From Meiothermus sp. (lineage in GTDB: Bacteria; Deinococcota; Deinococci; Deinococcales; Thermaceae): DNA of 64,000 nt. Each line of letters begins with the position of its first letter. Positions within the stretch are counted from its first letter, which is position 1. Below are positions 6,172 through 29,277 of this stretch, piece after piece. The stretch is taken from the NCBI RefSeq assembly GCF_026004075.1, contig NZ_BPIK01000001.1, forward strand, positions 1 through 64,000, given 5' to 3'. Under the pieces are notes generated by a model. The model saw only the letters and a list, made by a program, of their open reading frames with translations. It searched no databases and was not told the DNA's origin. The position numbers and the translations under genes are program-made.

Positions 6172-6183
6172 GGGTTCCTCCTG

Positions 6184-7996: not shown

Positions 7997-8002
7997 TCGC
8001 TA

Positions 8003-8063: not shown

Positions 8064-8095
8064 TAAGGCGCTGCCCCCCTGAAGACACAAAAGTC

Positions 8096-9364: not shown

Positions 9365-9481
9365 TGTGCAACCTCCCTGTTAGGCGTTTACCTTTTCCAT
9401 TAACGGTTAACGGTAGTGATAACTTGCAGTTATGACAAATGAAATTTAGTTATACTATCTATGAACCTTGGGGTATAGCAC
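9365..9481. promoter_or_regulatory. Divergent control region between sqr and a LysR gene
   Basis: The 117-bp gap holds a 15-bp palindrome ATAACTTGCAGTTAT (9419-9433) with six-base arms, the size and form of a LysR-type recognition site, plus the repeat TTAACGG (9400-9413 region). A -10-like TATACT lies at 9451-9456, about 25 bp before the LysR start. Autoregulation of the LysR gene together with control of sqr is the simplest reading. Confidence 0.5.
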
Positions 9482-10402
9482 ATGCGTTTGAATCCTCGGT
9501 ACTTGGTGGTATTTTGCGTGGTGGCTGAGTTGCGCAGCCTGAGCCGCGCCGCCGAAGTTTTGCATCTGAGCCAGCCTGCGGTGAGCAAAACCCTCAAGGC
9601 CCTCGAGGACGCTGTACGGCAGCCCCTTTACGAACGTACCCCCCAGGGTATCACCCTGACCGAAGCTGGTAAAGCCTTGCTGCCCTATGCCTGTGCGGTA
9701 AGCCGCAGCCTGGCCCAGGCCACCCGTTTTATTGAGGAGAAGCGGCACCGGCGTATCCCGAGCCTCGAGGTGGGCCTGGCCTGGAGTCTGATACCACGCT
9801 ACCAGGCCCCCCTGCTGAGCTGGGCCCTGGCCCACCAGGCCCGGGCCGAGCTAAACCTAAAAAACGGTACCACACTGGAGCTCATCGAGCAGGTATTCCA
9901 GCGCGATCTGGACGCGGCGCTGGTGTTGGGGGGAACCGATGCCCTGCCCGAGCCACTGCTGGCCCAACGCCTGACCAGCGAAGAGATGGTGCTAGTGGTG
10001 GCCCCTTCCCATCCCTGGGCTAGTTTAGGGGGTGTGGCTTTAGGGCAGCTCGAGGGGATGACACTGCTGGTGCCCCAGCGCAACTCGCGGCTGCGCCTGC
10101 GGCTCGAGCAGTTCTTAGAGCGCCACGGAATTGTGCCAGCGCGTTTGCTGGAGTGCGGCAGCCTATACGGGGTCAAAGCCGCTGCTGCCGCCGGGCTGGG
10201 AGTGGGCCTAGCCAGCCGCTCGTTTGTGGGGCCCGAGCTCGAGGCCGGCCTGCTGCGGCTCCTGTTCATCGAAGACGCAGGTTTTTCGCTGGGGATACAC
10301 TGGGTTTCCTATCCCGAGTCCTCTGTGGACTTTGCCACCCGCGAACTGATGGGATCGTTGTGGCGTGCCCTTAGCACCGCCCAGGGGCTGGTGAAGATGT
10401 AA
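9482..10402 (+). CDS. LysR-family transcription regulator
   Basis: A 306-residue regulator. Residues 1-62 form the winged HTH (RYLVVFCVVAELRSLSRAAEVLHLSQPAVSKTL is split here only by the usual helix turn). The rest is a periplasmic-binding-like effector domain with SLEVGLAW and LDAALVLGG segments. It faces away from sqr with a palindrome between them, which suggests it regulates the sulfide genes, itself, or both. The effector cannot be read from sequence; LysR proteins in sulfur loci (CysB/Cbl relatives) sense sulfur metabolites. It is the last gene before the left attachment site of the integrative element. Confidence 0.85.
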   Translation: MRLNPRYLVVFCVVAELRSLSRAAEVLHLSQPAVSKTLKALEDAVRQPLYERTPQGITLTEAGKALLPYACAVSRSLAQATRFIEEKRHRRIPSLEVGLAWSLIPRYQAPLLSWALAHQARAELNLKNGTTLELIEQVFQRDLDAALVLGGTDALPEPLLAQRLTSEEMVLVVAPSHPWASLGGVALGQLEGMTLLVPQRNSRLRLRLEQFLERHGIVPARLLECGSLYGVKAAAAAGLGVGLASRSFVGPELEAGLLRLLFIEDAGFSLGIHWVSYPESSVDFATRELMGSLWRALSTAQGLVKM

Positions 10403-10511: not shown

Positions 10512-10591
10512 TCAATAATCTTGTCCTGAACGGCTTTTCTTTTGGTCGAGGCGAGAGGATTTGAACCTCCGACCACACCCACCCCAAGGGT
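10512..10591. repeat. Left attachment site (attL): 3' fragment of tRNA-Pro
   Basis: Eighty bases identical to 29305-29384 in the same orientation. The copy contains the tRNA-Pro 3' half (minus strand) up to the anticodon stem and the encoded CCA, then the start of the terminator hairpin. The 5' half of the tRNA is absent; element DNA begins after 10591. Sequence to the left (10440-10511) also resembles the 29240-29304 region at lower identity, including a matching terminator hairpin arm. Confidence 0.9.
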
Positions 10592-10725
10592 ATGTCGCAC
10601 TCTTTTGGCGTTTTACGAGAAAAGTAACGAGGTCGCATTCTTGCTTTTCTAAAGCTATAAAGCTGAAATTTGTTCATCCGGTTTCATACTAGCACATACG
10701 ACCTAAATCGAGTTCATACGGATTC

Positions 10726-10747
10726 GGTAACTCCCCGGTAACTCCCC
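10726..10747. repeat. Tandem 11-bp repeat near attL, candidate integrase arm sites
   Basis: GGTAACTCCCC occurs twice in direct succession. The same tandem pair lies at 29245-29265 next to the other end. Position inside both ends of the element fits arm-type binding sites of a tyrosine integrase. The rest of 10592-10932 shows no supported gene. Confidence 0.6.
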
Positions 10748-10932
10748 TTGGTGTGAGTGGAAGTTATACCGACCATGTCTGCATTTGCTAGATTGGCAAC
10801 CCCAAAGATTGAGAACTCGAGACCATGTTCTTGTAGGGTTTTGTGGACAAATTCAAGGCCGAAGCTGGGAGGGGCGAGACTGAAGCTGGGCTCGTGAGGG
10901 CAACACAAGCTGTTGTTGACTATTAATCTTGT

Positions 10933-11799
10933 TTAGAGCCTGCTAACTAGCTGTTCGTAAAAGCTCCACAGTTTTCGCTGTCATCAGAATCGAAAAAGCC
11001 AACCAGTGCCAACCTCGCAAGGTCTCAGCCAGCCGCTCATAGTCTCGCGCCAGCCTGCGAAACCGGGATGTCCAGGCAAACGAACGTTCCACCACCCAAC
11101 GCTTCGGCAGCAGCACGAATCCTCGTTTGGCCCCTTCCACCTTGACCACACACAGGGCGATGCCTTCCGCCTCTGCCGCTTGTGCCGCTTCCTCCCCAGT
11201 GTAACCCTGATCCACAAAGGCCACTTCCACCTGCTCCCCCGTCACTTCCTGCACCTGTTGACTGAGGGCTCCCACCTGGGCCCGTTCCTGTTCACTGGCC
11301 GCCGTTACTACCAGGGCCAGCAGATGCCCCAGGGTATCTACCGCCAGGTGAACTTTGCTTCCCTTGCGTCGTTTGTACCCATCGTATCCGGCCCGCTCCC
11401 CACTTTGCGGGGTGGACTGTAGGGTGCGAGCATCGTAGATGGCAGCGCTGGGATGGGCGGCTTTGCCCTGGAGCATTCGCAGGGTCATGCGCAGGTCGTG
11501 TACCAGGTCTTCGAAGACCCCCCGGTTCATCCAGCGGTAGGCTTGCGCCTGAACGATATGGGGGGGTGGGAAGTCGTGGGGCAGGTAGTCCCACTGAGCA
11601 CCGGTTCGAACCATCCAGCGCAGGGCGTTGAACACTTCGCGCAGGTCGTACTTGCGCTGGGGTGCTTCCAGCGGGGCGAGGGTCAAATAGGGCAGCACCA
11701 GAGCCCATTCCTCATCACGGACGTCCGATGGGTAAGCACGGCGGTTCATGCTCTAAACATAACTGCAGTGCCTGATTTGGGTAAGGTGGTTTGTAGATT
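10933..11799 (-). mobile_element. IS5-type insertion sequence, right copy
   Basis: Inverted copy of the element at 1-867 with no visible difference. The end at 10933 is well defined, because the flanks of the two copies differ there. The opposite end is either at about 11753, with a GAGCATG terminal repeat, or extends to about 11816, where GAGCACGGGTTCACTAG (read inward) resembles the inner end. It lies inside the integrative element, about 340 bp from attL, and abuts the 3' end of the next gene. Confidence 0.88.
10943..11749 (-). CDS. IS5-family DDE transposase (right copy)
   Basis: The 268-residue protein is the same as that encoded at 51-857: N-terminal insertion-element HTH, central DDE domain, and the C-terminal catalytic Glu in WVVERSFAW. 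It is intact, so the element should be able to move. No separate role in the island is expected. Confidence 0.93.
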
Positions 11800-12591
11800 C
11801 TAGTGAACCCGTGCTCTGGTAGTGGTGGCTCCAAGAGGCAATAACTCTAAACGAAGTGGGTTCAGAATCTCTCTCCTTAGGCTTTCCTCTAATAAGTCCA
11901 GTTGTTTTTGGCTGGCTATCTTTGCGAAAGTATCTCGTGCTGCGCTGATGTACAGAATAAGCTGTTGAAGTTCTAGCATTTTGGCCAACTTAAAGCGAAT
12001 AGTGGCCCGGGTCTTCTCGAGCATGATAATTTTGCTCGCAAGACGTTCAATCTGATTAGACGATTGTTCCGAGAAGTAGAGCAAATCGTTGAGTTCCTGG
12101 ATTTCCTTACGTATCGCGGTAGCTTTTATTGGTTTTCCGACCTGTGCGAAATGGCTTAACTTGCGTTTCAGAGCTTTATATGCGTGATCTATTTCCTCGA
12201 GTAAGTTGGGTCGGGATGCATAGCGGTTTATAGCAGTCTCCAGAGCACTTTTAACCACTGCCAGTTCGCGGTTGGTGGCGTGATGCTCGTCTATTGTTGC
12301 AAGGATGCGATCAAGCAAAGTGGAGAAGTCATCGTAAACCAGACCGGAGTAGAGCCTGTGCTTCACAGAAGCTGTCATAGGGTCTTTACGCTTTCCCTCC
12401 TTAACCCGCTTGGGATAACCCGCGCCGTGATTGGGGCAGACCCGTAGCCCTCGTACCGCAGCCTTTTTGCACTGCTTGCCCGTGCTTTTCACAATCGCCT
12501 GGCAACGGGGCGGGTGACCCCGCAGGTGGTCACAACAGGGCTCCAATGCTTTGGCCGAACCTAGTGAACGGGTGATTCTTTGCTTGCCCAT
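11800..12591 (-). CDS. Protein of unknown function with a Cys/His cluster, C-terminus cut by the insertion sequence
   Basis: A 263-residue protein. Near the N-terminus, RCQAIVKSTGKQCKKAAVRGLRVCPNHG has the spacing of a small zinc-binding knuckle found in various phage and mobile-element proteins that bind DNA. The rest is rich in helices with charged heptad-like stretches (about residues 75-240). The last residues (TTTRARVH) and the stop fall at the insertion-sequence boundary, so the natural C-terminus is probably lost. Composition is lower in GC than the island to the left. A role in DNA binding is a guess; no family is recognised with confidence. Confidence 0.6.
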   Translation of the reverse strand: MGKQRITRSLGSAKALEPCCDHLRGHPPRCQAIVKSTGKQCKKAAVRGLRVCPNHGAGYPKRVKEGKRKDPMTASVKHRLYSGLVYDDFSTLLDRILATIDEHHATNRELAVVKSALETAINRYASRPNLLEEIDHAYKALKRKLSHFAQVGKPIKATAIRKEIQELNDLLYFSEQSSNQIERLASKIIMLEKTRATIRFKLAKMLELQQLILYISAARDTFAKIASQKQLDLLEESLRREILNPLRLELLPLGATTTRARVH

Positions 12592-12712
12592 AAAACTACC
12601 CTAGCACTAACATCCATAGGGCTCACAAAACCCAAGAGACTATTTGGCACCCTTCTGTGGATGGGTGGGGCAGGTTTAGTAAGATTTCAGGGCCGGTGCG
12701 TAAACTCAAGCT

Positions 12713-13040
12713 ACCCCCAACCGTGCCAGTAGCTCAAAGGGCCTGGCGGCGATACGCTTAAGGGCGGTGGTCATGCTGGACACGCCCCACGCGTGTAAAC
12801 AGTTGATGATAAACGCCTGGAGGCGGGCCAGATCCATTAGCTGCCTGGTCCCGCACTCGACAATGATCCTTGCCCAAAAGTCACATCACGCACCAGAAAG
12901 TCATGGTTCTTGATGCCCCCACCGTTCGCGTACAAGCTGACCCAGGTGCAGCGCTTCCCAGTCCAGCAAGGCCCCACTGGCCCGCACCTGGTACGTCCAG
13001 ACCTTGCCACGACGCACCTCTAACCAGCTTGCCTGTCTCT
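12713..13040 (-). pseudogene. Decayed transposase C-terminus
   Basis: Reading the minus strand in one frame gives fragments such as VRRGKVWTYQVRASGALLDWEALHLG, then, after stops, FWARIIVECGTRQLMDLARLQAFIINCLHAWG and a final KRIAARPFELLARLGVA. The style (basic and aromatic residues, helices ending in an ELLARLG tail) matches C-terminal parts of DDE transposases, with at least two in-frame stops. The family was not identified. It occupies most of the roughly 590-bp gap between 12592 and 13179; no promoter for the downstream operon stands out there. Confidence 0.45.
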
Positions 13041-13179
13041 CCATTGCAGCGGCGGGACGCCGGGATCATAAATAATACAACAACTTTCAGTAGTACGTCC
13101 TCTAGGGTATCTTGGAAAGAGAAAGGACTGACTGTCAAAATAAGATACTTCTTAACCAGTCGCCTTATGAAAACGTCGT

Positions 13180-14925
13180 ATGAGCATCATAGCCGCGATT
13201 GATTGGCCAACACTGAATGCCACGGTAGATAAGGAAATCCGCCGGAGGGAGCACCATAACCCTGCTATCTCGGTGTTCCGGTGGTGGGCCCGGCGCCCCC
13301 ATAGCGTGATTCGAGCCTTGCTAGAGGCTGCTCAAAGCCAAGGGGTTCGCTATGTGGCGGATCCCTTCAGCGGCGGTGGAACGGTGGCTCTCGAGGCGGC
13401 GGCTTTAGGCCTGCGTGCATATGCGCAGGACCTGTACCCATGGCCGGTGTTCGGCCTACAGACGGCCCTGAGCCAGGTCGATCCTAAACGGCTGCGTGTG
13501 GAAGGGAGACGCCTGTTACATCACCTCGACCCACTCCGCCGATACTACCAGCGAGAGGATGGCCGGGAGCTTATGGGCATTCTGCGGGTGAGGGTTGTGC
13601 GCTGCCTGGAATGCGAGTTTACCTTTCCACTCTATCCAGAAGGAGTACTGAGTAAGGTGCGACGCAGCGGGAGCGAGGCATATTACGGCTGTCGCCGATG
13701 TGGTAATGTCTCTCTTGAGGCTGGATGTGCTTGTGGCTATGAACTTCCTGCCTCCCCGGCAGGAAAAGTGGCTTGCCCCCACTGCGGTGTGGCTGGCTCC
13801 GTTGCCACAGTCGGCTGGACTGCTCCGTTAGTACTGGAAGATAACAACGGCCGAGTGCTGGTGCGCCCCACCGTGGAGGGCGATCCGGTGGCCTTTATCC
13901 CAGCTAGCAACACATTCCTCCAGTTGAGGCAACCGATCAAGGTCGGGCTGGAAACCCGGCGATTGCACAGAAGCGGGTTACAGTATTGGGGAGACTTATA
14001 CAGCGAGGCCCAGGCTGCGGTGATCCTCGAAGGCCTCAACTACCTTAAGGAGCGCCGGATGCCTGGTAGTGTGCGTAACCGCTTGGCTATGGTGTTGCTG
14101 GGACTGGCAGAAATGGCCGCTCTGCTAGCCCGTTGGGATCGGCTATACTGTAAGGGCATCGAGGGTGTTGCCAATCATCGCTATGCCATCCCGCCTGTTG
14201 CCTTTGAGGCCAACCCGCTGGCAAACGTTGGTCGAGGTGTGCTCAGACGGCGCCTAGAGGCTGCCTACCGAGCCACCGACTGGTACCACGGGTTGGAGAA
14301 TAAGGGCCGTGTCCAGCTGGTTGCAGGTAGCAGCGAACGACAGGCCCTAAAAAGAAGGGTCGTGGACTTGGTACTCACGGATCCCCCCTACTTTGATGAC
14401 GTGCAATACGGGGAAATGGCCCAGCTGTTCCATTTCTGGCTGGGCCAGTACCGACCGATGGTTGCTGACGAGAAGCAGGAGGCGGTGCCAAATTCGATGC
14501 GCGGCGTCGGCGCTGAAGGATATGCTGAGCGGCTCGAGGCAATCTTCAAGGAGTCGTTGCGCAGCTTGCGGAGGGGAGGTCGGATCATTTTGAGTTACCA
14601 CAACCGTGAGCTCAGGGCCTGGGAAGCCCTGGCTAGCGCCTTACGCGTCAACGGGCTGCGCTTGCGTGGTGCTGCGGTGGTGCTCGCAGAGAGTGCCAAT
14701 GATCACTCCAAGCGCGGTACGAATGCCCAGCTATACGACGCGATCTTAGAGCTTGAACTGGGATACAGAGGGGACGCTGAGGCGGTCTGGTGTCCGGAGA
14801 ATCCCGTTGCCAAAAACCTGCTCGCGGTGGCTTTGGCGCTGGGTGAGGCCCTCGAGGGGCAATCCTTGGCTGAAAGCTATGCCGCTCAGTGCGCGGCCCT
14901 TGGAGTAGAGCCTTCGATTTGCTGA
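13180..14925 (+). CDS. DUF1156/COG1743-type DNA methyltransferase with zinc ribbons (DISARM-associated)
   Basis: A 581-residue amino-methyltransferase (N6-adenine or N4-cytosine). Residues 26-41 (HNPAISVFRWWARRPH) are the DUF1156 signature; DPFSGGGT (61-68) is the SAM-binding motif I; DPPY (401-404) is the catalytic motif IV. Between them lie Cys pairs at about 142/145, 171/174, 183/185 and 199/202, forming two zinc ribbons. As first gene of the defence operon it should mark host DNA so that the other components attack only foreign DNA. Its stop overlaps the next start (TGATG). Published DISARM systems use a drmMI adenine or drmMII cytosine methylase; whether this protein equals drmMI needs alignment. 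Confidence 0.85.
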   Translation: MSIIAAIDWPTLNATVDKEIRRREHHNPAISVFRWWARRPHSVIRALLEAAQSQGVRYVADPFSGGGTVALEAAALGLRAYAQDLYPWPVFGLQTALSQVDPKRLRVEGRRLLHHLDPLRRYYQREDGRELMGILRVRVVRCLECEFTFPLYPEGVLSKVRRSGSEAYYGCRRCGNVSLEAGCACGYELPASPAGKVACPHCGVAGSVATVGWTAPLVLEDNNGRVLVRPTVEGDPVAFIPASNTFLQLRQPIKVGLETRRLHRSGLQYWGDLYSEAQAAVILEGLNYLKERRMPGSVRNRLAMVLLGLAEMAALLARWDRLYCKGIEGVANHRYAIPPVAFEANPLANVGRGVLRRRLEAAYRATDWYHGLENKGRVQLVAGSSERQALKRRVVDLVLTDPPYFDDVQYGEMAQLFHFWLGQYRPMVADEKQEAVPNSMRGVGAEGYAERLEAIFKESLRSLRRGGRIILSYHNRELRAWEALASALRVNGLRLRGAAVVLAESANDHSKRGTNAQLYDAILELELGYRGDAEAVWCPENPVAKNLLAVALALGEALEGQSLAESYAAQCAALGVEPSIC

Positions 14926-17090
14926 TGTGGGGGATTGATCGAAATAGTCTGATCGACGATGCCCTGCTGCGCCGCATCTACCCGCAGGGACTCGACGTCT
15001 ATGCTCGGTTATCCGGCGTGCTGGGGCGGCGCGCCTGGGAGCAGAGACGGCGTCTGATCCTGATGGACTCCACCCGCCCGAGCCCCCTACCCCAAACCCT
15101 GGCGGTGGGCCTGTTGGTCGCCGATTTCTTCCATCGGGAGATGTACCACTCCCCATACTTGAAAGGCAATCTGCTCATCGTCACCCGCCAAGTAGGCCAG
15201 TTGCGAGAAAGCTTGCGCGAGTTCCGCCTGGGAGAAGCAGGCGACAGCTTGGAGCGCTTTTGGGAAATCCGCACCCTCTCCCGCTACCAACCGCCAGGCA
15301 GCCGACCGGCGATCTACCTAGCTAACCCCGGCTGGCCGCTCGAGCACCCCTTCGCTGCGGTGATCATCGATGCCACCGATCCCCGGGTCTTGGCTTGCCT
15401 AGAGAACCTGCCCTTCAACCATTACCTAGCCGTTACTCCGCCACTGGATGAGGCCACGTTAGCTCGGCTAGGCAGGTCGGCCGTGCTATGGGATGAGGCT
15501 GCCAAAGGATGGGTAGCCCGGGAGTTCAATAGGCACGAACATCCCGGGCATCCAGCTTCATCGCCATCCTACCGCTGGGTGGAGGTGATCGAAGATGCAG
15601 AACTGGACAAGGTTCTTTGGGCGGCTTACCAGCAGCTAGCCGAGGCCCAGGCGATGTTCGGGGGGTTTTTTCCCCTCCGGCAAGCCTGGGGTTTGTTCCA
15701 TCAGCTACGCATGCTCAGCGTGCCGCTGTACCGGCTTGAAAACCTGCGTAAGCATAAGGGACGCCCCACCCTGCGCGACCGGCTGGACTCCCTCGAGCCG
15801 GAAGCCCCCTCCCATCCGGTGCAGCGCCTGCTTTGGCAACGGGTGCTCGATCGGCTGAGCGAAGCCTACGAAGCCTTGCAGCACCGCGACCTGCCGCCCA
15901 AGTTTTTCGCCCTCGTGGAGTGGCTGGAGCAGCACAACGCGGAGCTGCGATCCTGTTGGGTAGTAGCCACCACCCAGACTGAAGCAATCCTGCTGCAGAG
16001 CCTATGCATGGATGTCAGTCCACGGCAGCTGTTCATCGGCTTCGGAGGCTCAGCCGAGGTGCTGTGGTCTAACGAGGAGGAACGCCGGGCGGCACAGGGG
16101 TTGGGATCAGAGCGGCTGCTGCTTGGCTACCGCAGCGCCAGTCAGCGCTACTTGGACTTAGGTCCGGCCAATGTAGCGGTCCTAGCCTACCCTTTCGAGG
16201 CACGCATCGAGAGCTACCTCTGCGAGCAGCGTCAGCGCTGGCTGGAGTATCTGGTAACAGAGCGCGACCGAGTCCTGCATTCCCTGGGTCTGAAGCCCCC
16301 TTCTCCGCCAGACCTTCCCGTCACCAGGTTGGAATTTTCTAAACAAAAAGCAGTGGTTCAGCCCTTAAGTGTCTTGACGGAGGAGGCGCCGCGACTTGAC
16401 CTGCACGCCTTAGCAGAGTACCAAGTAAACCCCCGGACCGGAGGGAACCGCGGACCGACAGTCGAAGAGATGAAGGTGGAGCTGGAGGGTGGGTTGATCC
16501 TCTATCTGCCCAAGACCCGGTTGGTCACCCTGTTCGTGCCCGGGCAAGGCAACGTGGAAAAGCTTGCACAACAGCTACAACCCGGCGACCGGATGATCAT
16601 CTTTGTCGACGGCGTGTACGATGACCTGTTCGAGCGCATCAGCGAAGCCTTGCAGCCGCTAGTACAGATGGAGGAACGGTTATACTTGGAATTGTGGGAA
16701 GCAGCCAAGCTAAAACTACAAGTGCAGTATCCCAACATGGCAGAGTTGCACCGCGCGCTGGCACGTCGTGGCTTGGAACGTGACCCGACAACGGTGCGCA
16801 GCTGGTTCGCCAAGGGGCAGACCCTTGCCCCCCAACAGTTCCACGACTTCCTGCTTCTGACTAGTATCATGGGGCTCCCCGAGTCTCTGAACCGCCCCCA
16901 GCTGTGGCGGGCCATAGAGAACCACCGCACGAGACATCGCCAATTGGGCCGGCTGCTGCACCGAGTGCTGGAGAGCATCGTCAGCGGCAGCGGCTACGAG
17001 GGGTCATTGCGAGAGGCGAGGCAGCAGGGGATATCCCTGGAAGAGTTGCTCAGCGCAGTGGACGTGAGGAGGGTAGTTCGACGCTCATGA
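14925..17090 (+). CDS. DrmE-like protein of the DISARM-type operon
   Basis: A 721-residue protein of largely unknown activity. ATG 14925 overlaps the methyltransferase stop (TGATG), which decides the start. No Walker motif, nuclease motif or membrane helix was found by eye. The middle has a pattern resembling a Rossmann-like domain (CWVVATTQTEAILLQSL, LLLGYRSASQRYLDLG), and the C-terminal third (about 490-720) is helical with a VDGVYDDLFERI block. Position directly before the drmA helicase and its length match drmE of class 2 DISARM, where drmE has no known domain. The assignment is by position and general likeness, not by a diagnostic motif. Confidence 0.65.
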   Translation: MWGIDRNSLIDDALLRRIYPQGLDVYARLSGVLGRRAWEQRRRLILMDSTRPSPLPQTLAVGLLVADFFHREMYHSPYLKGNLLIVTRQVGQLRESLREFRLGEAGDSLERFWEIRTLSRYQPPGSRPAIYLANPGWPLEHPFAAVIIDATDPRVLACLENLPFNHYLAVTPPLDEATLARLGRSAVLWDEAAKGWVAREFNRHEHPGHPASSPSYRWVEVIEDAELDKVLWAAYQQLAEAQAMFGGFFPLRQAWGLFHQLRMLSVPLYRLENLRKHKGRPTLRDRLDSLEPEAPSHPVQRLLWQRVLDRLSEAYEALQHRDLPPKFFALVEWLEQHNAELRSCWVVATTQTEAILLQSLCMDVSPRQLFIGFGGSAEVLWSNEEERRAAQGLGSERLLLGYRSASQRYLDLGPANVAVLAYPFEARIESYLCEQRQRWLEYLVTERDRVLHSLGLKPPSPPDLPVTRLEFSKQKAVVQPLSVLTEEAPRLDLHALAEYQVNPRTGGNRGPTVEEMKVELEGGLILYLPKTRLVTLFVPGQGNVEKLAQQLQPGDRMIIFVDGVYDDLFERISEALQPLVQMEERLYLELWEAAKLKLQVQYPNMAELHRALARRGLERDPTTVRSWFAKGQTLAPQQFHDFLLLTSIMGLPESLNRPQLWRAIENHRTRHRQLGRLLHRVLESIVSGSGYEGSLREARQQGISLEELLSAVDVRRVVRRS

Positions 17091-20000
17091 GTCAAGTCAG
17101 CTATAACGACGAGATCAAGCTGGTGGATCACCTAACTCGAGTACTGGAACACCGACTGGCGGGACGTGACCAGAGACGTCATGTAGCACGGCAGCCGGTG
17201 GACGTATGCCAGCTTGGTGTACTGGCCCCCTATGACCCGGACGCCGATGCGTACAAGCAGCCAAGTAGCTTAGGTTTGGAGTTCATGGTGCGTGATCAGG
17301 AAGCTGGGAGGATAGAAGTCGAGGGCCAACTTGCCTTTTACGTACGGCGGCTACCCACGCTGGCAGAGCAGCAGTCCGTTGCTGGCGAAGCTGGTGGACA
17401 GGGCCTAATCGAGGTCATTGAGCGCTGCGACCTATCCTTTGGCCCACTGGAGCTCCCGCTCATCGACGGGGATGACTGTGGGCAGCTACAGCAGTTGTTG
17501 GATAAAGAAATCCAAGTTCTGGCAGCACGAGCCGATGCGTGGCGCGTGATGGAACGCAGACCCTCGGTACCTGCGAACGCCACAACCTCAGCAGAAGCTT
17601 TCGCTGAGTGGTTGCAGGAAGCCTTGGGAAACAGGCCGCTCGACATCCCCCCGCTTAAGGTGCGCTTACAAGTGATGACCCGGCACTATGAGGACTGTAA
17701 GCGCGTCACCGTGTACTTGCGCAATGAGACCCCTCAAGGCAACAACCCTACCGAGAACAACTACCGGGTCATCGCGGACGTTCGGTTGCGGGTGCGTGTG
17801 CAGGGCACACTGGTACCGGTAGAGATCCTCCCTGTGGCCGAGGATTATCAGTTTGACCGCAACGTATGGGTAGTCGGAAGAAACTGCGGAGCACTGCGAG
17901 AGGGCAACTGCCTAACCACCCGCTGTCTGGCTATATCCCGCCAAAAGCGCATGACCACGCGCTCTGAACCCCCAGCTCCCTTTCAGGATCTGGCCCAACG
18001 TCCCCTCGAGGTGCTCCAGGGCATCTACGAAGCCATGCAGGCCCACGCCCAGTCCTGGGAGCGGGAACTGGATCGCAGAGGGTATACTGGCGAGTTTGCC
18101 GAGGCGGCTCAGGCGGACCTGCAGCAGTTCCGCGAGGAGATCCACCGTTTTGCCGCCGGATTGGCCGCCCTCCAGGCCGATGCCCGGCTCGAGCAGGCCT
18201 TCACCGCCATGAACCGGGTCTTTGCCCGCATATCCCCTTACCCCAGTTGGCGGCTGTTTCAGATCGTCTTCATCGTCAGCCAGCTGCCTGCCCTCGTGTT
18301 GCGAGAAGGGATCACGGCAGGCGAGTGGGCTGGGGAGCGCTACGAGTGGGCCGACGACCCGGACCAGGCGGTGGTGCTGTGGTTCCCTACCGGCGGCGGC
18401 AAGACCGAGGCGTATCTGGGTTTAGTGTGTACGGCCATGCTCTACGACCGCCTGCGTGGGAAGAAGCTGGGGGTCACCGCTTGGCTGCGCTTTCCCCTGC
18501 GGATGCTCTCGTTGCAGCAGTTGCAGCGGGCCATGCGCGTGCTGTACGGGGCGGAGCAGGAGCGGTTAGCGCTGGGCCTCGAGGGGGACCCATTCCGGCT
18601 GGGTTACCTCGCGGGCAAAGGAAACTCGCCCAACCAACTCGACGCCACCGAGCTGCAGCGCTGGAGCCAGGCGGGTGAGCTGGAGAAACTGCGGCTGGTG
18701 CCCAACTGCCCAGCCTGCGGGGGGCTAGAGACGGTGGAAGTGTATCCCCAGGCCAACCGGTTGTGCTTCGAGCATCGCTGCCGAGAGTGCGGGTACCAGC
18801 TTCCACTGGACGTAAGCGACGCCGAGGTGCTGCGGCACCAGAGTACGGTGGTGGTGGGCACGGTGGACAAGATGGCAGCGCTGGCCTATCAGCCCGCGTT
18901 GAGCATGCTCTGGCAGGTGCGCAGGTGCTGCCCGCAGCATGGGTACTTCCTGGACAAGTGCCTGGTGAGGAACTGCTCCGTAAACAGTCGGCAACTGCAG
19001 ACCGTAAATGCCTACGACCTTGGGCCAAGCCTGCACATCCAGGACGAGCTCCACCTGTTACAAGAGGAGCTGGGGGCCTTCGCCGGGCACTACGAGACAA
19101 CAATCCGCTCACTCGAGCCCAAGCCCGCCAAAGTGTTGGCTGCCACAGCGACCATCGCTGGCTACGAACACCAGCTCAGACACCTCTACGGGGTTCGGCA
19201 CGCGGTGCGCTTCCCCGGTCGCGGGATGGACCGCTACCGCACGTTCTACAGCGAGGTGGCGCGGGAAGAGGGGCAGGAAAAGATCGCGCGGGTCTTCCTC
19301 GCGTTCTGGAGCCGTCCCCACCCCGCTGAGAGTTCAGCCTTGGTGCACCGCATCCTTCTGAACGAGATCAAGCGCCTCGCCAGCAATCCTTATGAGTTGA
19401 GTGCCGTGGTAGGCCGTACCTTGAGCCCAAATGAGGCGGGCGCTTTGATTCGGCTTTACTCCACCTCGTTGGCCTACGTGGGCAGTCGGGCCAACGGCAG
19501 TCGGATCAAGGATACCTTGGAATCAGGGCAGGTCTTCCGTGTGGAATACACCCATAACAAGTCTACCCCGGCCCATATCGCCCAGGTGGTGAGCTCGATC
19601 GAAAACCCGCCTCCGTTTGGGTCGGACAGCTTCCTTGATGCGCTAGTGGCCACCAACATGATCAGCCATGGGGTGGACCTCGAGCGGATCAACCTCATGA
19701 CCCTAGATCGTCTGCCGGGCACCGTGGAGGAGTACATCCAGGCCTCAAGCCGGGCTGGGCGGCAACACGTGGGCCTAGTTGTGGTCATCCTGGCCAGTTA
19801 CAACCTGCGTGCTTCTAGCGTGTACAGCCGCTTCGTGGAGTACCATGACAACCTCGAACGCATGGTGCATCCAGTGGCCATCAACCGCTTCGCTCGTTTC
19901 GCCCTTCGCCGCACCTTACCCGGGGTGCTGGCATCGGTGTTCCTCGGACGAAGCCACTCCGGCGCGAACAGGCTGTGGGAGCGGGAGAGTGCTCGCCAAT

Positions 20001-20281
20001 ACCTGTCGCAGCAGCGCCAGCAGGTACTGGGGGAGCTTAAGGAAGCCTACCGCCTGGGGGCTGGGGTCTATCCGTCGGATCTCGAGCAGGCCATGGCGGT
20101 CGTGTTGGAGGAGGAGCTAGACCAGGTGCAAGTCACGCTATCGAGCAGCCAGGAGCGGTATCTAACGAAAGCCATCCACCCGATGACCAGCCTCCGCGAC
20201 GTCGAGGAGGGGGTTCAGGTCAACTTGACAACAAGCTACTCGATTGAGGATGCAAGGTGGTTCACACGGGGGGGGCGCTGA
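17087..20281 (+). CDS. drmA: DISARM helicase DrmA
   Basis: A 1064-residue SF2-type helicase. The Walker A motif FPTGGGKTEAYLGL is near residue 436, IQDELHLL (Walker B) near 652, ATATI (motif III) near 685, and the C-terminal motif VI region SSRAGR near 886, after TNMISHGVDLERINLMTLDRLPG. A Cys-rich insert (CPACGG, CRECGY, about 545-570) lies between Walker A and B. About 430 residues precede the motor and may bind DNA or partners. ATG 17087 overlaps the previous stop (ATGA). In DISARM, DrmA works with DrmB on incoming phage DNA, and the complex is inhibited at methylated host sites. Confidence 0.88.
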   Translation: MSQVSYNDEIKLVDHLTRVLEHRLAGRDQRRHVARQPVDVCQLGVLAPYDPDADAYKQPSSLGLEFMVRDQEAGRIEVEGQLAFYVRRLPTLAEQQSVAGEAGGQGLIEVIERCDLSFGPLELPLIDGDDCGQLQQLLDKEIQVLAARADAWRVMERRPSVPANATTSAEAFAEWLQEALGNRPLDIPPLKVRLQVMTRHYEDCKRVTVYLRNETPQGNNPTENNYRVIADVRLRVRVQGTLVPVEILPVAEDYQFDRNVWVVGRNCGALREGNCLTTRCLAISRQKRMTTRSEPPAPFQDLAQRPLEVLQGIYEAMQAHAQSWERELDRRGYTGEFAEAAQADLQQFREEIHRFAAGLAALQADARLEQAFTAMNRVFARISPYPSWRLFQIVFIVSQLPALVLREGITAGEWAGERYEWADDPDQAVVLWFPTGGGKTEAYLGLVCTAMLYDRLRGKKLGVTAWLRFPLRMLSLQQLQRAMRVLYGAEQERLALGLEGDPFRLGYLAGKGNSPNQLDATELQRWSQAGELEKLRLVPNCPACGGLETVEVYPQANRLCFEHRCRECGYQLPLDVSDAEVLRHQSTVVVGTVDKMAALAYQPALSMLWQVRRCCPQHGYFLDKCLVRNCSVNSRQLQTVNAYDLGPSLHIQDELHLLQEELGAFAGHYETTIRSLEPKPAKVLAATATIAGYEHQLRHLYGVRHAVRFPGRGMDRYRTFYSEVAREEGQEKIARVFLAFWSRPHPAESSALVHRILLNEIKRLASNPYELSAVVGRTLSPNEAGALIRLYSTSLAYVGSRANGSRIKDTLESGQVFRVEYTHNKSTPAHIAQVVSSIENPPPFGSDSFLDALVATNMISHGVDLERINLMTLDRLPGTVEEYIQASSRAGRQHVGLVVVILASYNLRASSVYSRFVEYHDNLERMVHPVAINRFARFALRRTLPGVLASVFLGRSHSGANRLWERESARQYLSQQRQQVLGELKEAYRLGAGVYPSDLEQAMAVVLEEELDQVQVTLSSSQERYLTKAIHPMTSLRDVEEGVQVNLTTSYSIEDARWFTRGGR

Positions 20282-22056
20282 TGGAGCGGGGTAGGACACA
20301 AATCCTATACAACTTTCTGCCCGGGGCACTGGCCGAACATGAGGACTTCGGCATGAGCTGGGTAACGAGTGTGGAACTGGATCCTCAGGTAGACGTCAAT
20401 CAGCGGGCTCTGTTGAACCTTGTTGACGACTACGTGAGGCGCTGGGAGTTTGACGGCAGGGCCTTCCACCAGGGTTATCCTGCCAGCCGGCTCAATCCTG
20501 CTGGTTTTGCGATAGGGCAGCCAAGCCGCGTGCTGATGGAGCCCTTCCCCAGCAGCTTCAGCTGCACGCGCTGCGGCTATACCGCGAAGCTGGTCAGTCT
20601 CAAGCAGAGGAGGGCTCGTCCTGGGGTGTGCCCACGCTGCCAAGGTCCGCTGGGCCGGATGACGGTGGTCCAGATACACAACTGCGGCGCGCTGCAGGAG
20701 CTTTCTTTCCCCGATGAGTATGACTCGAAGTACCGTGGCCACAATCTCAGGTTATTCAACCCAGGACGCACCCGCGATGCCCGTTGGTACTCTCTGGACT
20801 CAAATAAGGAGCTTGGCGGATTGCGGATGTGGCCCTGCAATTGCGAGTACAGCAAGGCAAATCCTAATGAGAAGTTCCAGCGCCAGGTGGAGGCTAAGGA
20901 GCCGACCAACCACCTCGCACACGTGCTGCCGTTCCTCAATTTCGACAAGGAGCAGGAGAGCCTGCTCATCAGCCTGGAGAAATCGAGTACGGGGTTGTTG
21001 CTGGCCAAGCTGTGGGGTCTCCTTCCGGGCAAGGTGCGGGAGGCCGTGGCCAAGAGGGAACTCAGCCCCGACGCCCAGCAAGTCCTCGAGGTTCTACGAC
21101 AGGTTGCGCCAGAGCGGGCACGGGCCATGGAGGACCAGATGAGAAATGACCCTTCCTCACAGGCGCTTGCTGAGGTAGGTCGCCTCACTGCAGGTGCCAC
21201 CATCGGGCCGCCGAGCCGTCAACTGGTGGAGCACGCCATCCTGGAAGACACCTCTGAGCTCACCACTCCCGCGATGGCAGCGGCCCGATGGTGCACCCTG
21301 GATGGGTCGGGTGCCGCATCCTACCTGCAGGAGTCTGAGCGGATGAGGGGACTGTTGGGATTCAGCAATATTCGGCTAATCAGCAACTTCCGTATCGCAC
21401 TAGCTGCGATAGGATACACACGGGTTTCCCGCGATCCCCAGCGCAGTATACTGCGGGCCTTTCCTGCGGTTGACGGAAAGACCCCCATCTACTGCGTGCC
21501 CACCGAAACCGAAGCAATCTGGTTTCAGCTAGACCCCACGCCCGTGCTACGCTGGCTGGTGCGCAACAATTTGGCACCAAAGGAAGCCCAAGGCGCTGAA
21601 GCTTGGGCTAAGCTCTGGCACCTTGGCCTGCGGGGCGAGGCTTTCCGCACCCCGCAGGACGCGGTGCCCACCCTGGTATATACGCTGCTTCATACCATTT
21701 CCCACCTCATGATGCAGCGCATCGTCTGGAGCGGCTTCGCCCCGGAGAGCATTGGGGAGTATCTGCTCCCCGAGACGCTGGGCCTGATCCTCTATGCCAA
21801 CCGCTACACGGCCAGCAAGATTGGCGGGTTGACCACTCTCTTCGAACAGCAATTGCCCTACTGGCTTGAGGAAGTTTACCAAGATGGTCGTAGCTGCATC
21901 TACGACCCGCTGTGCGCTGAGGAAGGGGGTAGTTGTGTGGGTTGCACCTACCTCGAGCACAACTGCATCGACTTCAACCACCACCTGAGCCGCCTGGTGC
22001 TGTACGGTGGGAGCCACCCGAAGTACGGCGTGCTTCGAGGATTCTGGGAGCCATGA
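20281..22056 (+). CDS. drmB: DUF1998 protein DrmB
   Basis: A 591-residue protein with the DUF1998 (MrfA-type zinc) domain at its C-terminus: HTISHLMMQRIVWSGF, IGEYLLPETLGLILYAN, then a Cys cluster including CIYDPLC, CVGCTYL and NC (about 540-562). A second zinc site, CTRCGYTA plus CPRCQGPLG, lies near residues 95-120. DUF1998 commonly accompanies DrmA-type helicases and forms a complex with them. The start overlaps the drmA stop (TGATG). The drmA-drmB-drmC order is the conserved core of DISARM. Confidence 0.87.
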   Translation: MERGRTQILYNFLPGALAEHEDFGMSWVTSVELDPQVDVNQRALLNLVDDYVRRWEFDGRAFHQGYPASRLNPAGFAIGQPSRVLMEPFPSSFSCTRCGYTAKLVSLKQRRARPGVCPRCQGPLGRMTVVQIHNCGALQELSFPDEYDSKYRGHNLRLFNPGRTRDARWYSLDSNKELGGLRMWPCNCEYSKANPNEKFQRQVEAKEPTNHLAHVLPFLNFDKEQESLLISLEKSSTGLLLAKLWGLLPGKVREAVAKRELSPDAQQVLEVLRQVAPERARAMEDQMRNDPSSQALAEVGRLTAGATIGPPSRQLVEHAILEDTSELTTPAMAAARWCTLDGSGAASYLQESERMRGLLGFSNIRLISNFRIALAAIGYTRVSRDPQRSILRAFPAVDGKTPIYCVPTETEAIWFQLDPTPVLRWLVRNNLAPKEAQGAEAWAKLWHLGLRGEAFRTPQDAVPTLVYTLLHTISHLMMQRIVWSGFAPESIGEYLLPETLGLILYANRYTASKIGGLTTLFEQQLPYWLEEVYQDGRSCIYDPLCAEEGGSCVGCTYLEHNCIDFNHHLSRLVLYGGSHPKYGVLRGFWEP

Positions 22057-22757
22057 CTTTGTCAACCGAGACCCTGCGCCTGCTAGGGGCGGCGCTCTGG
22101 AGTCGGCTGGATCAGCTGGTTACAGCCAACGACCTGCTGTGGGCGGATAGCCTGTTAGGAGAGGGAGGGCACCTCTGGCTATATGAGGCCTTACAACGGC
22201 ACGGGGCGCTGGAAGGGGGGCAGCTGCGGGCCCAGGGTCTGGCTGCTTTCCTGGGGAGGTATGCGGACCAAGGGACCCTCTTGTGGACGTTACCCGATCG
22301 TGAGAACAGCTATGTCGCGGCCATCCTGGAAGCCATCGCCAGTGCCGAGCAACACCTGTGGCTGGTAAGCCCTTACCTGGAGCAGCAGGGCATGGCTCAC
22401 CTCAGCGACGAGCTCCTGAGTGCCCTCTGGCGCGGGGTTGCCATCTCGGTGATCACCCACGCGGCCCACGAGCCAGGTAGCCCCCAGGCCAGAGCGCTGG
22501 CCCGCCTGCAGCAAGAGGCGCTGCGCGCACAGGGAACGCTGACCATCTACAGTGCTCAGATGGAGAAGGGCTTGTTACACGCCAAGATCGTGGTGGCGGA
22601 TCGGAAGTGGGGAGTGCTCGGGAGCGCGAACCTGACCGACCCCGGGCTCCGCTGGAACGTGGAGATCGGGATGCGTTTTGGTGAACAGCATGCGCGAACC
22701 ATAGTTGCCCAGCTTGAGGAACTATGCCGGGAACCGAGGTTGGTGCGCTTAGAGTAG
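22053..22757 (+). CDS. drmC: Phospholipase D-fold protein DrmC
   Basis: A 234-residue PLD-family protein with a single HKD motif: HAKIVVADRKWGVLGSAN starting near residue 176 (His, Lys, Asp, then GSxN). Single-HKD members usually dimerise and cleave phosphodiester bonds, commonly in DNA. The N-terminal 90 residues are helical. ATG 22053 overlaps the drmB stop (ATGA), so the whole five-gene operon is translationally coupled. In studied DISARM systems drmC is dispensable for defence against some phages. A block of decayed insertion sequences follows. Confidence 0.85.
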   Translation: MTLSTETLRLLGAALWSRLDQLVTANDLLWADSLLGEGGHLWLYEALQRHGALEGGQLRAQGLAAFLGRYADQGTLLWTLPDRENSYVAAILEAIASAEQHLWLVSPYLEQQGMAHLSDELLSALWRGVAISVITHAAHEPGSPQARALARLQQEALRAQGTLTIYSAQMEKGLLHAKIVVADRKWGVLGSANLTDPGLRWNVEIGMRFGEQHARTIVAQLEELCREPRLVRLE

Positions 22758-22894
22758 CTTTGACAAATACTTTGATCCGGATTTACGAGGTGTTTACTAA
22801 ATGCGGAAGAGTGCAGCTCCAGTCAAGAAAGAAGCCAAGCGGACAGCATACCCCCTGTATCCGCTGCACTTTAAATAACGCCAGTTCGAAGTTA

Positions 22895-23076
22895 TAAGAA
22901 ATCTTCAATACTCTTTCCACTAAAGTGGAGCCATGCAACTGGCCCAACATCAGCGCCGCCCCCGGTTGGAACTTCAACTGCAACACCATTTGACCCAGCC
23001 AGCGCCTACCCAGGGTTACACCCTATTTCACTGGTGGCCGGGGAATATTAAGGGAATAACTTAAAAGGACTTCTTA
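22895..23076 (-). mobile_element. MITE derived from an IS630-family element by internal deletion
   Basis: Both ends match the IS630 element at 57182-58317. TAAGAAATCTTCAA and the segment through ATGCAACTGGCCCAACATCAG match its transposase start region. The sequence then jumps directly to ACACCCTATTTCACTGGTGG, matching its 3' end, and closes with an inverted TAAGAAGTCC-type end at 23076. About 950 bp of transposase sequence are missing. It begins and ends at TA, the IS630 target. It cannot move on its own but could be mobilised by the intact element. Confidence 0.78.
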
Positions 23077-23081
23077 TTATC

Positions 23082-24034
23082 TCTGAAGTTACGCACAGAG
23101 GTATAAAGCGATAAAATAGGGCTTCCTGCCGATACAGGAGGCCCCTGATGAGTCTAGCACCGGTCGCAAAGTATCTTCAAGCCTTGTTGGTTGCGGTCTC
23201 TAACCACACACGCGTAGGTCTTGCCGATGCAGTTGAAGGCGTCTGCCACGACACCTTCCATCGCCTGCTGACGGGACGGATACAGTTGCTGGCGATTCTC
23301 CAACGCTTGGTCAACAAGCTGGTTCAGAAAGGTGGATACCTGATTCTGGACGATACCACCCTACAGAAGTTCACCACGGGTCTGGACTGTACGCACAAGG
23401 TTAGGGATAGCAAAACCGGGGGCTTCATTCTGGGGATACAGGTGCTGCTGGTGTGGACGAATGGCACCATCACCGTGCCGGTGGGTTTTCACCTCTACCG
23501 CGGAAAGGAAAAGCACAGCAAGCATGAGCTGGCCCTGCAACTGCTGCGACAGGCCCAGTGGCTGGGCATCGAGCCGGCGTATGTGTTGTTGGATGCCTGG
23601 TATGCCAGCGCCCGCTTGTTGCACTACCTCCAGGAGCAAGGCTGGCCCTTTGTGACCCGACTGAGGAAAAACCGCAGTTTGAATGGTCGGCAGCTCCGCT
23701 ATTTCCGCAGAGGGCCTTACTGGTCAGCGCTGCGGTATCTCAGGGGCCATATTCCGGTGGTGGTGTACCGGCGGGGAAGCAAGTTCTATGCCAGCAGCGA
23801 CCTGGAGCTACAAGATTCTGAAGCAGGCGTGCGGCTGGGAGGGGGTAAAGCAGAGGACGGTATCGTCGTACCGCCGTCACCTCACGCTGGGGCTGATGGC
23901 CTTCCTCTTCCTGGATCAGCAGAAATCCCAGCGTCGTACCACCCCCTACAAGTTGCGACGTCAGCTCATCTCCGGCAAGCTCAGGGTCTCCCAGCTTGAG
24001 CTACAACGATTCCTTGAGGCCGCGTAACTTCAGA
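23082..24034 (+). mobile_element. IS4-superfamily insertion sequence with a damaged transposase
   Basis: Perfect 13-bp terminal inverted repeats, TCTGAAGTTACGC at 23082-23094 and GCGTAACTTCAGA at 24022-24034, enclose one transposase gene. Total length is 953 bp. No clear target duplication is visible. It abuts the MITE on the left and another insertion sequence on the right. Confidence 0.8.
23148..24027 (+). pseudogene. DDE transposase, frameshifted and internally deleted
   Basis: Residues 1 to about 220 read well: the N-terminal part, the first Asp in LILDDTTLQK, and the second Asp in YVLLDAWYAS. The frame then breaks near 23810, after SSDLELQ. The natural C-terminus continues in the +1 frame as YKILKQACGWEGVKQRT and runs to VSQLELQRFLEAA, stopping at 24027. 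The segment normally lying between these blocks, including the catalytic Glu region, is also short, so a deletion caused the shift. AGGAGG precedes ATG 23148. The enzyme should be inactive. Confidence 0.75.
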
Positions 24035-24041
24035 AGGCGAT

Positions 24042-25112
24042 GATAAAGAGGAACCGTGCTGTGGGCTATAGTGGGAAGCCCGGTCAGCACAGTAACTCTG
24101 CACGATGTCTGAAGTCGTACAAGGCAGTTTATCGCATCTGGCAGGTCTGGCAGGGTGGGAAAGGCAATACGTGTTGGGCCTGCTGGAGTCCGAGTATGAG
24201 AGCCCCAGCGCGTTGGCCAGGGGACGATCCCCTGTCGGGACGGGGCTTGCACCCCGTGCACCCGGTTGCTGAAGCGGGAAGCCAAACCCTACGAGCGCAG
24301 CCGCTTGGAACGGCTGAGGCTGGCCCCCAGAGGGATGTATTTGGGGGTGGACTTGGTGCCTGTGGAGCACCAGGGGTGTTGGATCGAGGGGGTGGATCGG
24401 GTCTATTCGAGCAGTGATAAAGCCCCGGTCTGGGGTCATAACCTGCTGTCCAGCGGGCTGGTACGTTTGGGAGAGCCGCCCTATCCGTTGAGCCTGGAGG
24501 GTTTCCCCAGCGCAGCGTTGGCCTCTGAACCCTACGCCTACCGCACCCCCGGACAGGCTTTGTTGCAGACCGTAAAGGTGGTCACGGAAGCGGGGTATGA
24601 CCTCAAGGGGGTGGTGTTCGACAACCAGTTTGCGGGCCAGGTACATCTAGCAGGCTTGTGCGCTCAAAACGTTCCTTTCGTGGCCAGAGCACGCCTGAAT
24701 CAAAAGGTGGGGGTGGAGCTTGAAGGTGAAGCTCGTCATCTATCTATCCGCGAACTGGGTGAACAATATCCACCCAGTAAAGCCCGCTACTACAAGCTCA
24801 TCGTCCTGTTTTCCACCTTGCCAACGGGTGTTCAAGAGGTCATCGCGGCTTGGAAAGCCCGCTGGGATCTGGAGCGCGTACACCGCCTGCTCAAGCAGAA
24901 CCTGGGCCTGTGCAAATGCCTCTGTCGTTCTTATGCTGCCCAGCTCAAGCACGCCGACCTCACCCTTACTGCCCTGCTCTGTATCCGAGAGCAAAAACAG
25001 CTATCCCCTGCGCTTTCCTGGCGTAAGGCTCAGCTATTATCCGCTCAATCCCTCAGACGGCAGCTTCTGACCGGCCTTTCTGCCTGACCTTACTGGCTGG
25101 GTGCTCTTTATC
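24042..25112 (+). mobile_element. Second IS4-superfamily insertion sequence, damaged
   Basis: Inverted ends GATAAAGAGGAACC (24042-24055) and its imperfect partner ending CTCTTTATC (25104-25112) bound a transposase in two frames. Length is about 1.07 kb. It starts 8 bp after the previous insertion sequence ends. Confidence 0.68.
24105..25087 (+). pseudogene. DDE transposase in two reading frames
   Basis: ATG 24105 opens MSEVVQGSLSHLAGLAGWER and continues to about 24255, where the frame fails at a stop. The rest reads in the next frame from TRLLKREAKPYERSRLERL to the stop at 25087. It contains GVDLVPVEHQG, VVFDNQFAGQ and WKARWDLERVHRLLKQNLGL, where the Glu of the DDE triad lies. No slippery heptamer is evident at the joint, so this is more likely a disabling frameshift than programmed frameshifting. 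Confidence 0.7.
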
Positions 25113-25201
25113 TCAGTATTTCTACTTGGGGTTCAATCTCTTGTTTAAGGGGTCGCCTCGGTCATTGCAGAGGAGGTGTAACTTGAACCCAAAGAACTAG
25201 C

Positions 25202-25380
25202 CTATGGTATTCTTTCCTCGCCGAGCGATGCCTTACTCCCGCTCAGCCTGGATTTCGGACCAGGATTGCCTTTGGCTTCCAGCTTGACTCCCGATTCCAG
25301 CAGTCGCTGAGCTAGCTTGGCCTCGAACTCCTGGCAGAAATCGTCCACATCACAAAACAGCTCCAGTAGAGAAAGACTCA
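25202..25380 (-). pseudogene. N-terminal remnant of an IS982-like transposase
   Basis: From ATG 25380 the minus strand reads MSLSLLELFCDVDDFCQEFE followed by about 35 residues and a stop. ELFC-VDDFCQ-FE is the hallmark start of IS982-family transposases, which are normally near 290 residues. Only the first 60 or so residues remain. The rest of 25088-25604 shows no other supported feature. Confidence 0.68.
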
Positions 25381-25604
25381 TATAGACCTTCGTTTGGCTT
25401 GGGCAGTCGCTATGCTGCGCCCTTAGCCTAATGGAGGTCTTCTCTTGCAGCACGCCTTTTTTCCCAGTGCTTTGTCTCCGAACTGACGTTTGGATAACAA
25501 TCTCTGGGTGCGTCCGTTCACAAAATAAGAAACCAATTATAGCCCACAAAGTAGTAACATGATTTTACTGGCCATCAGCCACATTCTCTAAGTCTGTACC
25601 TGCC

Positions 25605-26405
25605 TTATTTATTCTTGGAAGCATATTTACCCCAAGCTTGTAGGGCAAGGGCTACAACCTTCTCTGCTTCGTGGGCTGTTATGCTTTTCAAGCTTTCCCA
25701 ATGATAGTGGTTGTGCAGTTCATTCAGGCGGGCTTCATGAGGTGCAAGTTCCCTGAAGCCCTCCCTAAAGTAGTTTTTGTACCTATCGTTGGTTAGCACC
25801 CACATACTTTGTGAGTGCGTAAAGGTAATGGAAGTTTGTTCGAATCCATTAGGTATCTCTCCTAACGGATGATATAAACGAACGGAAAGGTTGTTGGCGA
25901 ACTTGGATAGCCGGGCATAACCATTTGGAATTCCACAAGGAGAACGCATAAAAGCAGCACGTGGGCGCTCCTTGGACGTAGGCCAGAGGTAACCCGTAGC
26001 CTTACCATCGCCAGCGACTACCCTTACCCCGATGGGCCATATTTGATATGTCTTGAATGAGAAAAATATAAGTATGTAAAAGCCACGAGCATTTTCACTT
26101 TCTGACCACGCGATGTACGGAGTTTTGAGAGAGCGAGGACGCTTGATAAACCATGACTCTATCAATGCAGGATGTAAGTGGTCAACATTTGGATTTCCAA
26201 GAAGGTGAAGAGGAGATTGGTTCTTGAGGCAGCGGTAAATGCGGCGATGGGCAGCCTGGGCTGTCCAACCATTTGTATCAACCAGATATTTGACCCAGTC
26301 CTGTTTCTCAAGTGAACCTGTATTCCATACGGCTTTCAGAAGCCAATCAGGGGGCTGGCGATTAGGGGTGGGGAAATCTCCGGTCTTCCTCTGAATAATT
26401 TTCAT
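25605..26405 (-). CDS. Protein of unknown function in the integrative element
   Basis: A 266-residue soluble protein. I recognise no family. It is rich in aromatic residues (GFYILIFFSFKTYQIWPIGVR), has a single complete frame, and low GC codon use like the neighbouring Rep and integrase genes, unlike the defence operon. It diverges from the excisionase-like gene across a 94-bp gap. The C-terminal SITAHEAEKVVALALQAWGKYA looks like a helical tail. A role in replication, regulation or immunity of the element is possible; nothing in the sequence decides among them. Confidence 0.6.
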   Translation of the reverse strand: MKIIQRKTGDFPTPNRQPPDWLLKAVWNTGSLEKQDWVKYLVDTNGWTAQAAHRRIYRCLKNQSPLHLLGNPNVDHLHPALIESWFIKRPRSLKTPYIAWSESENARGFYILIFFSFKTYQIWPIGVRVVAGDGKATGYLWPTSKERPRAAFMRSPCGIPNGYARLSKFANNLSVRLYHPLGEIPNGFEQTSITFTHSQSMWVLTNDRYKNYFREGFRELAPHEARLNELHNHYHWESLKSITAHEAEKVVALALQAWGKYASKNK

Positions 26406-26499
26406 GATCCGGCCTCTACAACTTGTGACATTTATTCAGATTCTACTCCGTACGAGTTGATCGGTCAAAAAACTGTTCTGAACGCCTTAATTCGGTTTT

Positions 26500-26754
26500 A
26501 TGCTGAGTCATTTTTTCCCTACTGCTGCGATGCTCACTGTAAGTTATGTGAAAACTAGATTGTCTTCTGAACTGGAGCAGTATCCATTAACTCTGAGCCC
26601 TCGAGAGTTTGCTACAGCCTTGGGTGTTGGTCGTGACTCGATTTATGCGGCAATCCGGGCAGGAAAGCTTGTGACTATAAAGACTGGTCGTGCCTTCCGA
26701 ATCCCTCGAACGGAAATCGACCGCATCATGCGTGAGGGCCTTTGGCTGGATTGA
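26500..26754 (+). CDS. Small HTH protein, excisionase-like
   Basis: An 84-residue protein whose C-terminal 55 residues are a MerR/excisionase-type HTH: LSPREFATALGVGRDSIYAAIRAGKLVTIKTGRAFRIPRTEIDR, with the helix-turn-helix and the Arg-rich wing. Such proteins steer a tyrosine integrase toward excision or regulate element genes. A second ATG at 26530 would remove the first ten residues; neither start has a convincing ribosome site. It lies just upstream of the rep gene on the same strand and near the integrase, the usual setting of xis. Confidence 0.75.
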   Translation: MLSHFFPTAAMLTVSYVKTRLSSELEQYPLTLSPREFATALGVGRDSIYAAIRAGKLVTIKTGRAFRIPRTEIDRIMREGLWLD

Positions 26755-26803
26755 GCTTTCATCTGAACTCTGCTCCGAGGTTTGGGGCTGGTGAGAGGTT
26801 TCG

Positions 26804-29205: not shown

Positions 29206-29244
29206 AATCTGCCCCCAATGATTCCATAGAACTATTGAGCCTTA

Positions 29245-29265
29245 GTAACTCCCCGGTAACTCCCC
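29245..29265. repeat. Tandem 11-bp repeat near attR, candidate integrase arm sites
   Basis: Two adjacent copies of GGTAACTCCCC (the first lacking its first G), equal to the pair at 10726-10747 and on the same strand. It lies between the integrase start and the att core. Confidence 0.6.
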
Positions 29266-29277
29266 AAATACAAAGAA

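Follow-up and report, generated by a model that had tools for sequence, protein, structure and literature searches.

Five overlapping genes at 13180-22757 of the window, the 64,000-nt stretch of DNA analyzed here, quite probably encode a complete DISARM-type system of an unnamed, DrmE-bearing subtype that would act against phages. All five lie on the forward strand, in the order of an amino-methyltransferase (MT; 581 aa, 13180-14925), a DrmE-like protein (721 aa, 14925-17090), DrmA (1064 aa, 17087-20281), DrmB (591 aa, 20281-22056) and DrmC (234 aa, 22053-22757). Each of the four junctions is an overlap of 1 or 4 bases. The MT stop codon is joined to the drmE start codon by TGATG at 14923-14927, giving a one-base overlap, and the following junctions are ATGA at 17087-17090 (DrmE/DrmA), TGATG at 20279-20283 (DrmA/DrmB) and ATGA at 22053-22056 (DrmB/DrmC). 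The first-pass annotation had described a five-gene DISARM-like operon of this order and extent with these same junctions; we recovered the same five open reading frames and read all four overlaps directly in the sequence. Promoter and terminator scans of the operon gave results at or below chance.

DrmA, DrmB and DrmC matched the PADLOC DISARM models with E-values of 7e-94, 1.6e-29 and 2.6e-19, respectively, and DrmC also matched Pfam PLDc_2 (E 1.2e-18). The NCBIfam DISARM cut-offs were reached by none of the operon's proteins. The solved DrmA and DrmB of PDB 7s9v were the sole PDB relatives found for the operon's DrmA (E 8e-43) and DrmB (E 1.6e-6). The core that defines DISARM is present, with a YprA-type SF2 helicase as DrmA, a separate DUF1998-type zinc protein as DrmB and a phospholipase-D-type nuclease as DrmC. 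The ATPase motifs of DrmA (GGGKT and DELH) and the HxKxxxxD nuclease motif of DrmC (HAKIVVAD) are intact.

The identity of the 721-aa protein was examined with profiles; had none for DrmE matched it, the first-pass proposal of a hybrid operon would have fallen. The protein scored 39.2 bits against Pfam DrmE_C (cut-off 27) and 40.1 bits against NCBIfam DrmE_fam, under the cut-off of 80 for that model. The PADLOC DrmE models did not match it; the same models do detect a haloarchaeal DrmE (L024, 472 bits). A profile built from the 721-aa protein and its orthologues matched haloarchaeal DrmE, L024 among them, at 98.3% probability (E 1.3e-14) over 650 columns, nearly the full length. Because DrmE_C passed its cut-off and the profile match extends over those 650 columns, the protein is, on its sequence, a divergent but true DrmE.

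We modeled DrmE with AlphaFold2 from six sequences, generating a model of middling confidence (mean pLDDT 68.6, pTM 0.42). Residues 3-460 of the model resemble Swi2/Snf2 and RIG-I/Hef cores (Foldseek E-values down to 2.7e-8), with FANCM also among the SF2 helicases matched, and the best structural match, spanning model residues 4-460, had a Z-score of 14.6 over 352 aligned residues at an rmsd of 5.5. Two RecA-like domains are predicted in a Snf2-like arrangement, and DrmE_C lies at residues ~515-684. A search for a solved structure of DrmE found none. The Walker A signature GK[ST] is absent from the P-loop position in all seven members of the clade described below, and the DExH position reads IDAT, IDAS, IDVS or VDGM, the next residue being mostly H or D. 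A GGGKS in the DrmE of Haloplanus (L017) was considered as a Walker A motif and rejected, as it aligns after the P-loop position. The model suggests that DrmE has the helicase core of a Swi2/Snf2-like protein in which the ATPase motifs are eroded, which would make it a pseudo-translocase analogous to the Snf2-like DrmD of class 1, and this predicted fold offers the first testable role for DrmE. Comparison of the DrmE and DrmD profiles gave no sequence similarity, so the parallel between the two is one of predicted fold and gene position only.

The first gene encodes a methyltransferase of the amino type. Pfam N6_N4_Mtase and UPF0020 both passed the cut-off on MT, and Pfam gave no match to the cytosine-C5 methylase family. 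Motif I (DPFSGGGT, residue 61) stands ~340 residues ahead of the DPPY motif (residue 401), and between them lie zinc-ribbon-like cysteines at 142/145, 171/174, 183/185 and 199, the last with H201. Both active-site motifs are intact, and they and the cysteines are conserved across the aligned relatives. The description of this gene as a ‘DUF1156 zinc-ribbon methyltransferase’ held for the DPPY amino-methyltransferase and for the zinc-ribbon-like cysteines; the DUF1156 label was too specific. The Pfam DUF1156 domain was not detected in MT at an E-value of 0.1, the match to PADLOC ‘DUF1156_MTase’ covers residues 253-514, which is the methyltransferase part, and the match to NCBIfam NF042963 was at superfamily level, far under the cut-off of that model. 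Its sequence makes MT a member of the broad superfamily of the ‘DUF1156’ methylases. Zinc-ribbon amino-methyltransferases of this superfamily are known from COG1743 (DUF1156)-DUF499-Snf2/nuclease defence operons (PMC7641849), which have other partner genes and lack both DrmABC and DrmE. The predicted structure of MT matched only generic class I methyltransferases, one of them with E <= 0.001, so the methylated base is not settled by the model.

A search of genome contigs with MT returned eight loci. The order MT-DrmE-A-B-C was found in two Calidithermus species, on a plasmid of Rubrobacter tropicus, in the planctomycete Tautonia sociabilis and in Chloroflexota, betaproteobacterial and deltaproteobacterial metagenome-assembled genomes; at the betaproteobacterial locus the contig end falls within DrmC, and one further locus (L014) is too short to show gene order. 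The order is not due to chance, because it is kept in other phyla at 31-45% identity. Since six bacterial phyla share all five genes and their order, we take the arrangement as a genuine DISARM subtype, transferable and apparently without a name, and not as a one-off. A relative of MT on a Gemmataceae contig (L013, 4017-5984) has no drm genes nearby. DrmE matches were obtained in 3 of the 111 genomes searched of the window's phylum and in one of the 18 searched of its genus; phage records gave no DrmE match, and viral contigs searched with DrmE and with MT gave no relatives. The rarity in the genus, together with the position of the operon between insertion sequences, would fit a degenerate or domesticated remnant that has no present defence role. 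We regard such a remnant as very unlikely, given that all five frames are open with the catalytic motifs of MT, DrmA and DrmC intact, and that the close copies in the two Calidithermus species, at 86-92% identity to the window's operon, keep all five genes.

We analyzed the descent of the cassette in gene trees. The DrmA tree covered 27 proteins, none of them a canonical Bacillus class 2 sequence. In it the DrmA proteins of the seven cassettes formed one clade (100/100) among the DrmE-type systems, and class 1 DrmA formed a separate clade (100/100). The sister of the seven-cassette clade was a Streptomyces plasmid system (100/98), followed by a cyanobacterial one (96/97); three rows (L016, L017 and L020) have long branches, making these sister placements less secure than the clade itself. 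Quick trees of MT, DrmE, DrmA and DrmB shared, where resolved, the pairings of the window with Calidithermus, Rubrobacter with Tautonia, and Chloroflexota with the betaproteobacterium. The DrmB tree gave no resolved placement for Rubrobacter and Tautonia, and in the MT tree the Gemmataceae relative (L013) grouped with Tautonia. The cross-phylum pairings are as expected if the cassette had been transferred as a whole.

The published classes do not accommodate this arrangement. PADLOC type I requires DrmA, B, C, D and MI and forbids drmE, and type II requires DrmA, B, C, E and MII (PMC9252829); the operon falls outside both because it has DrmE and carries an amino-methyltransferase instead of MII. 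It shares with class 2 a DrmE homologue and DrmABC in the order E-A-B-C, and its DrmA lies among the DrmE-type systems. It differs from class 2 in having the zinc-ribbon amino-methyltransferase at its head, where class 2 has a 5-methylcytosine enzyme (DrmMII), and in a DrmE that lies below PADLOC and NCBIfam detection. With class 1 it has in common an amino-methyltransferase ahead of DrmABC, but it has no DrmD (the open reading frames around the operon include no drmD-sized helicase gene), its DrmA is in another clade, and MT is much smaller and of another type. The first-pass annotation had seen in the operon a DrmE-like protein combined with an amino-methyltransferase, and therefore either a hybrid of classes 1 and 2 or an unrecognised subtype. 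The DrmE_C and DPPY results bear out the combination, which fits neither published class, and its recurrence across phyla and its exclusion by both PADLOC definitions speak for the unrecognised subtype. We found no name for the MT-DrmE-A-B-C subtype in the open-licence literature searched; uncharacterised DISARM-like classes have been noted (PMC12458937). Under the two classes published so far, and in the tools that follow them, the subtype would go unclassified, and the diversity of DISARM is probably under-counted.

Two other assignments were weighed against an unnamed DrmE-bearing subtype. The operon could be a class 2 DISARM of the usual kind, with its cytosine methyltransferase encoded at some other place in the genome and an unrelated neighbour as its apparent first gene. 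This would account for the class-2-like DrmE and DrmABC and finds a parallel in some haloarchaeal DrmE loci (L019, L037), where no methyltransferase was seen in the stretch examined; it is about as unlikely as a remnant, given that MT overlaps drmE, stands ahead of drmE in every complete relative across phyla and gives a tree in broad agreement with those of the Drm proteins. The least likely is a true hybrid, in which a class 2 DrmE joined a class 1 methyltransferase and backbone: an amino-methyltransferase is typical of class 1, but the class 1 loci that we looked at have drmD and, ahead of drmA, methyltransferases of ~1,360-1,480 aa, unlike the 581-aa zinc-ribbon MT, and we rejected the hybrid on the DrmA tree. 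The trees and domain matches thus place the operon in a lineage of DrmE systems that has a methyltransferase of its own.

Comparison with other DrmE-type loci highlights the methyltransferase as the part that varies. A plasmid locus of Streptomyces cellulosae (CP109198), whose DrmA is the sister noted above, has a DrmE_C protein, DrmA, DrmB and DrmC in common with the operon and an adjoining MT relative (25%) that is distantly related and divergently transcribed; the zinc-ribbon amino-methyltransferase was seen at DrmE loci of the seven-cassette clade and of Streptomyces. Cytosine-C5 methyltransferases are annotated at the DrmE-type loci of Halorhabdus and Halobacterium, and one lies beside a candidate DrmE in Allocoleopsis. 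DISARM-like loci of Afipia, Polaromonas and Sphingomonas share the order methyltransferase, large protein, DrmA, DrmB, DrmC. They differ in having a methyltransferase of the Eco57I-like N6 family (seen in Afipia; genes of Polaromonas, Sphingomonas and Sinorhizobium are annotated similarly) and a large protein that is only tentatively DrmE (68% probability). DrmE-type loci carry at least two unrelated kinds of methyltransferase, and probably a third. Three DISARM-like loci (L025, L033 and L035) combine a methylase, Eco57I-like or N-6, with a protein of ~900 aa that weakly resembles DrmE_C and with DrmA, DrmB and a phospholipase-D-type protein, and possibly represent a further unnamed subtype.

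We put forward a broader proposal, to which we give somewhat less than an even chance. DrmE-type DISARM may be modular, the methyltransferase having been swapped repeatedly (cytosine-C5, Eco57I-like N6, zinc-ribbon amino) while the DrmE-DrmABC engine stayed the same, with the operon as the third class, and DrmE may be throughout a dead Snf2 translocase, such that a Snf2-fold subunit would be common to all DISARM classes, active in DrmD and catalytically lost in DrmE. If one engine does serve chemically different methyltransferases, self-recognition is unlikely to be tied to a single mark, which would bear on how DrmAB separates phage from host DNA.

The working of the system can be sketched by analogy with known DISARM. 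MT would methylate an exocyclic amino group at a host motif, N6-adenine being likelier than N4-cytosine as the product, and would in this way mark self DNA; its zinc-ribbon insert may read part of the motif. DrmAB has been described as a DNA-stimulated ATPase that is slower on methylated DNA (PMC9142583), and by analogy the DrmA helicase and DrmB would sense incoming DNA that lacks the mark, as has been shown for class 1 DrmAB, and DrmC would cut this DNA or help to process it. DrmE, as a catalytically dead Snf2-like fold with a C-terminal DrmE_C module, may bind DNA or serve as a scaffold, connecting DrmAB with DNA or with MT and filling the slot that DrmD, an active Snf2 helicase, holds in class 1.

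The cassette of five genes would move as one unit; in the window, it lies on a putative integrative element of 18.9 kb at a tRNA-Pro gene. An 80-bp perfect direct repeat occurs at 10512-10591 (attL-like) and at 29305-29384, with no other intact copy in the genome, and the two copies bracket the region 10512-29384, which holds the operon as its main cargo and a tyrosine integrase gene (27685-29205, reverse strand). The right copy includes the 3’ end of the tRNA-Pro (GGG) gene (29336-29412, reverse strand) and runs past it; the integrase gene adjoins this tRNA gene, and the integrase is the likely mover of the element. DISARM-related islands with flanking direct repeats are known in mobile elements at tRNA genes (PMC12458937). 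A search of three relatives for an empty integration site found none; at tRNA-Pro, related genomes show a match to the right flank and none to the left flank. In one of them (G031), the counterpart of the window's left flank (4107-10393; L044, 5740-12001) lies 0.6 Mb or more from the tRNA-Pro site, and because of this displacement a rearrangement at the left boundary of the element is possible. At the corresponding tRNA-Pro site this genome also retains the integrase's N-terminal 17 residues (L043, 8992-9042), as if another element had once been there or had been lost. Transposase-like genes flank the operon at 10943-11749, which matches transposase families, and at 23148-25087, where the genes look like transposases by eye only. 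A 294-aa protein with an HLHI motif, encoded at 26804-27688, has a weak match, below the cut-off, to REP_ORF2-G2P of the HUH-type replication proteins (E 0.07) and could be the replication protein of the element itself.
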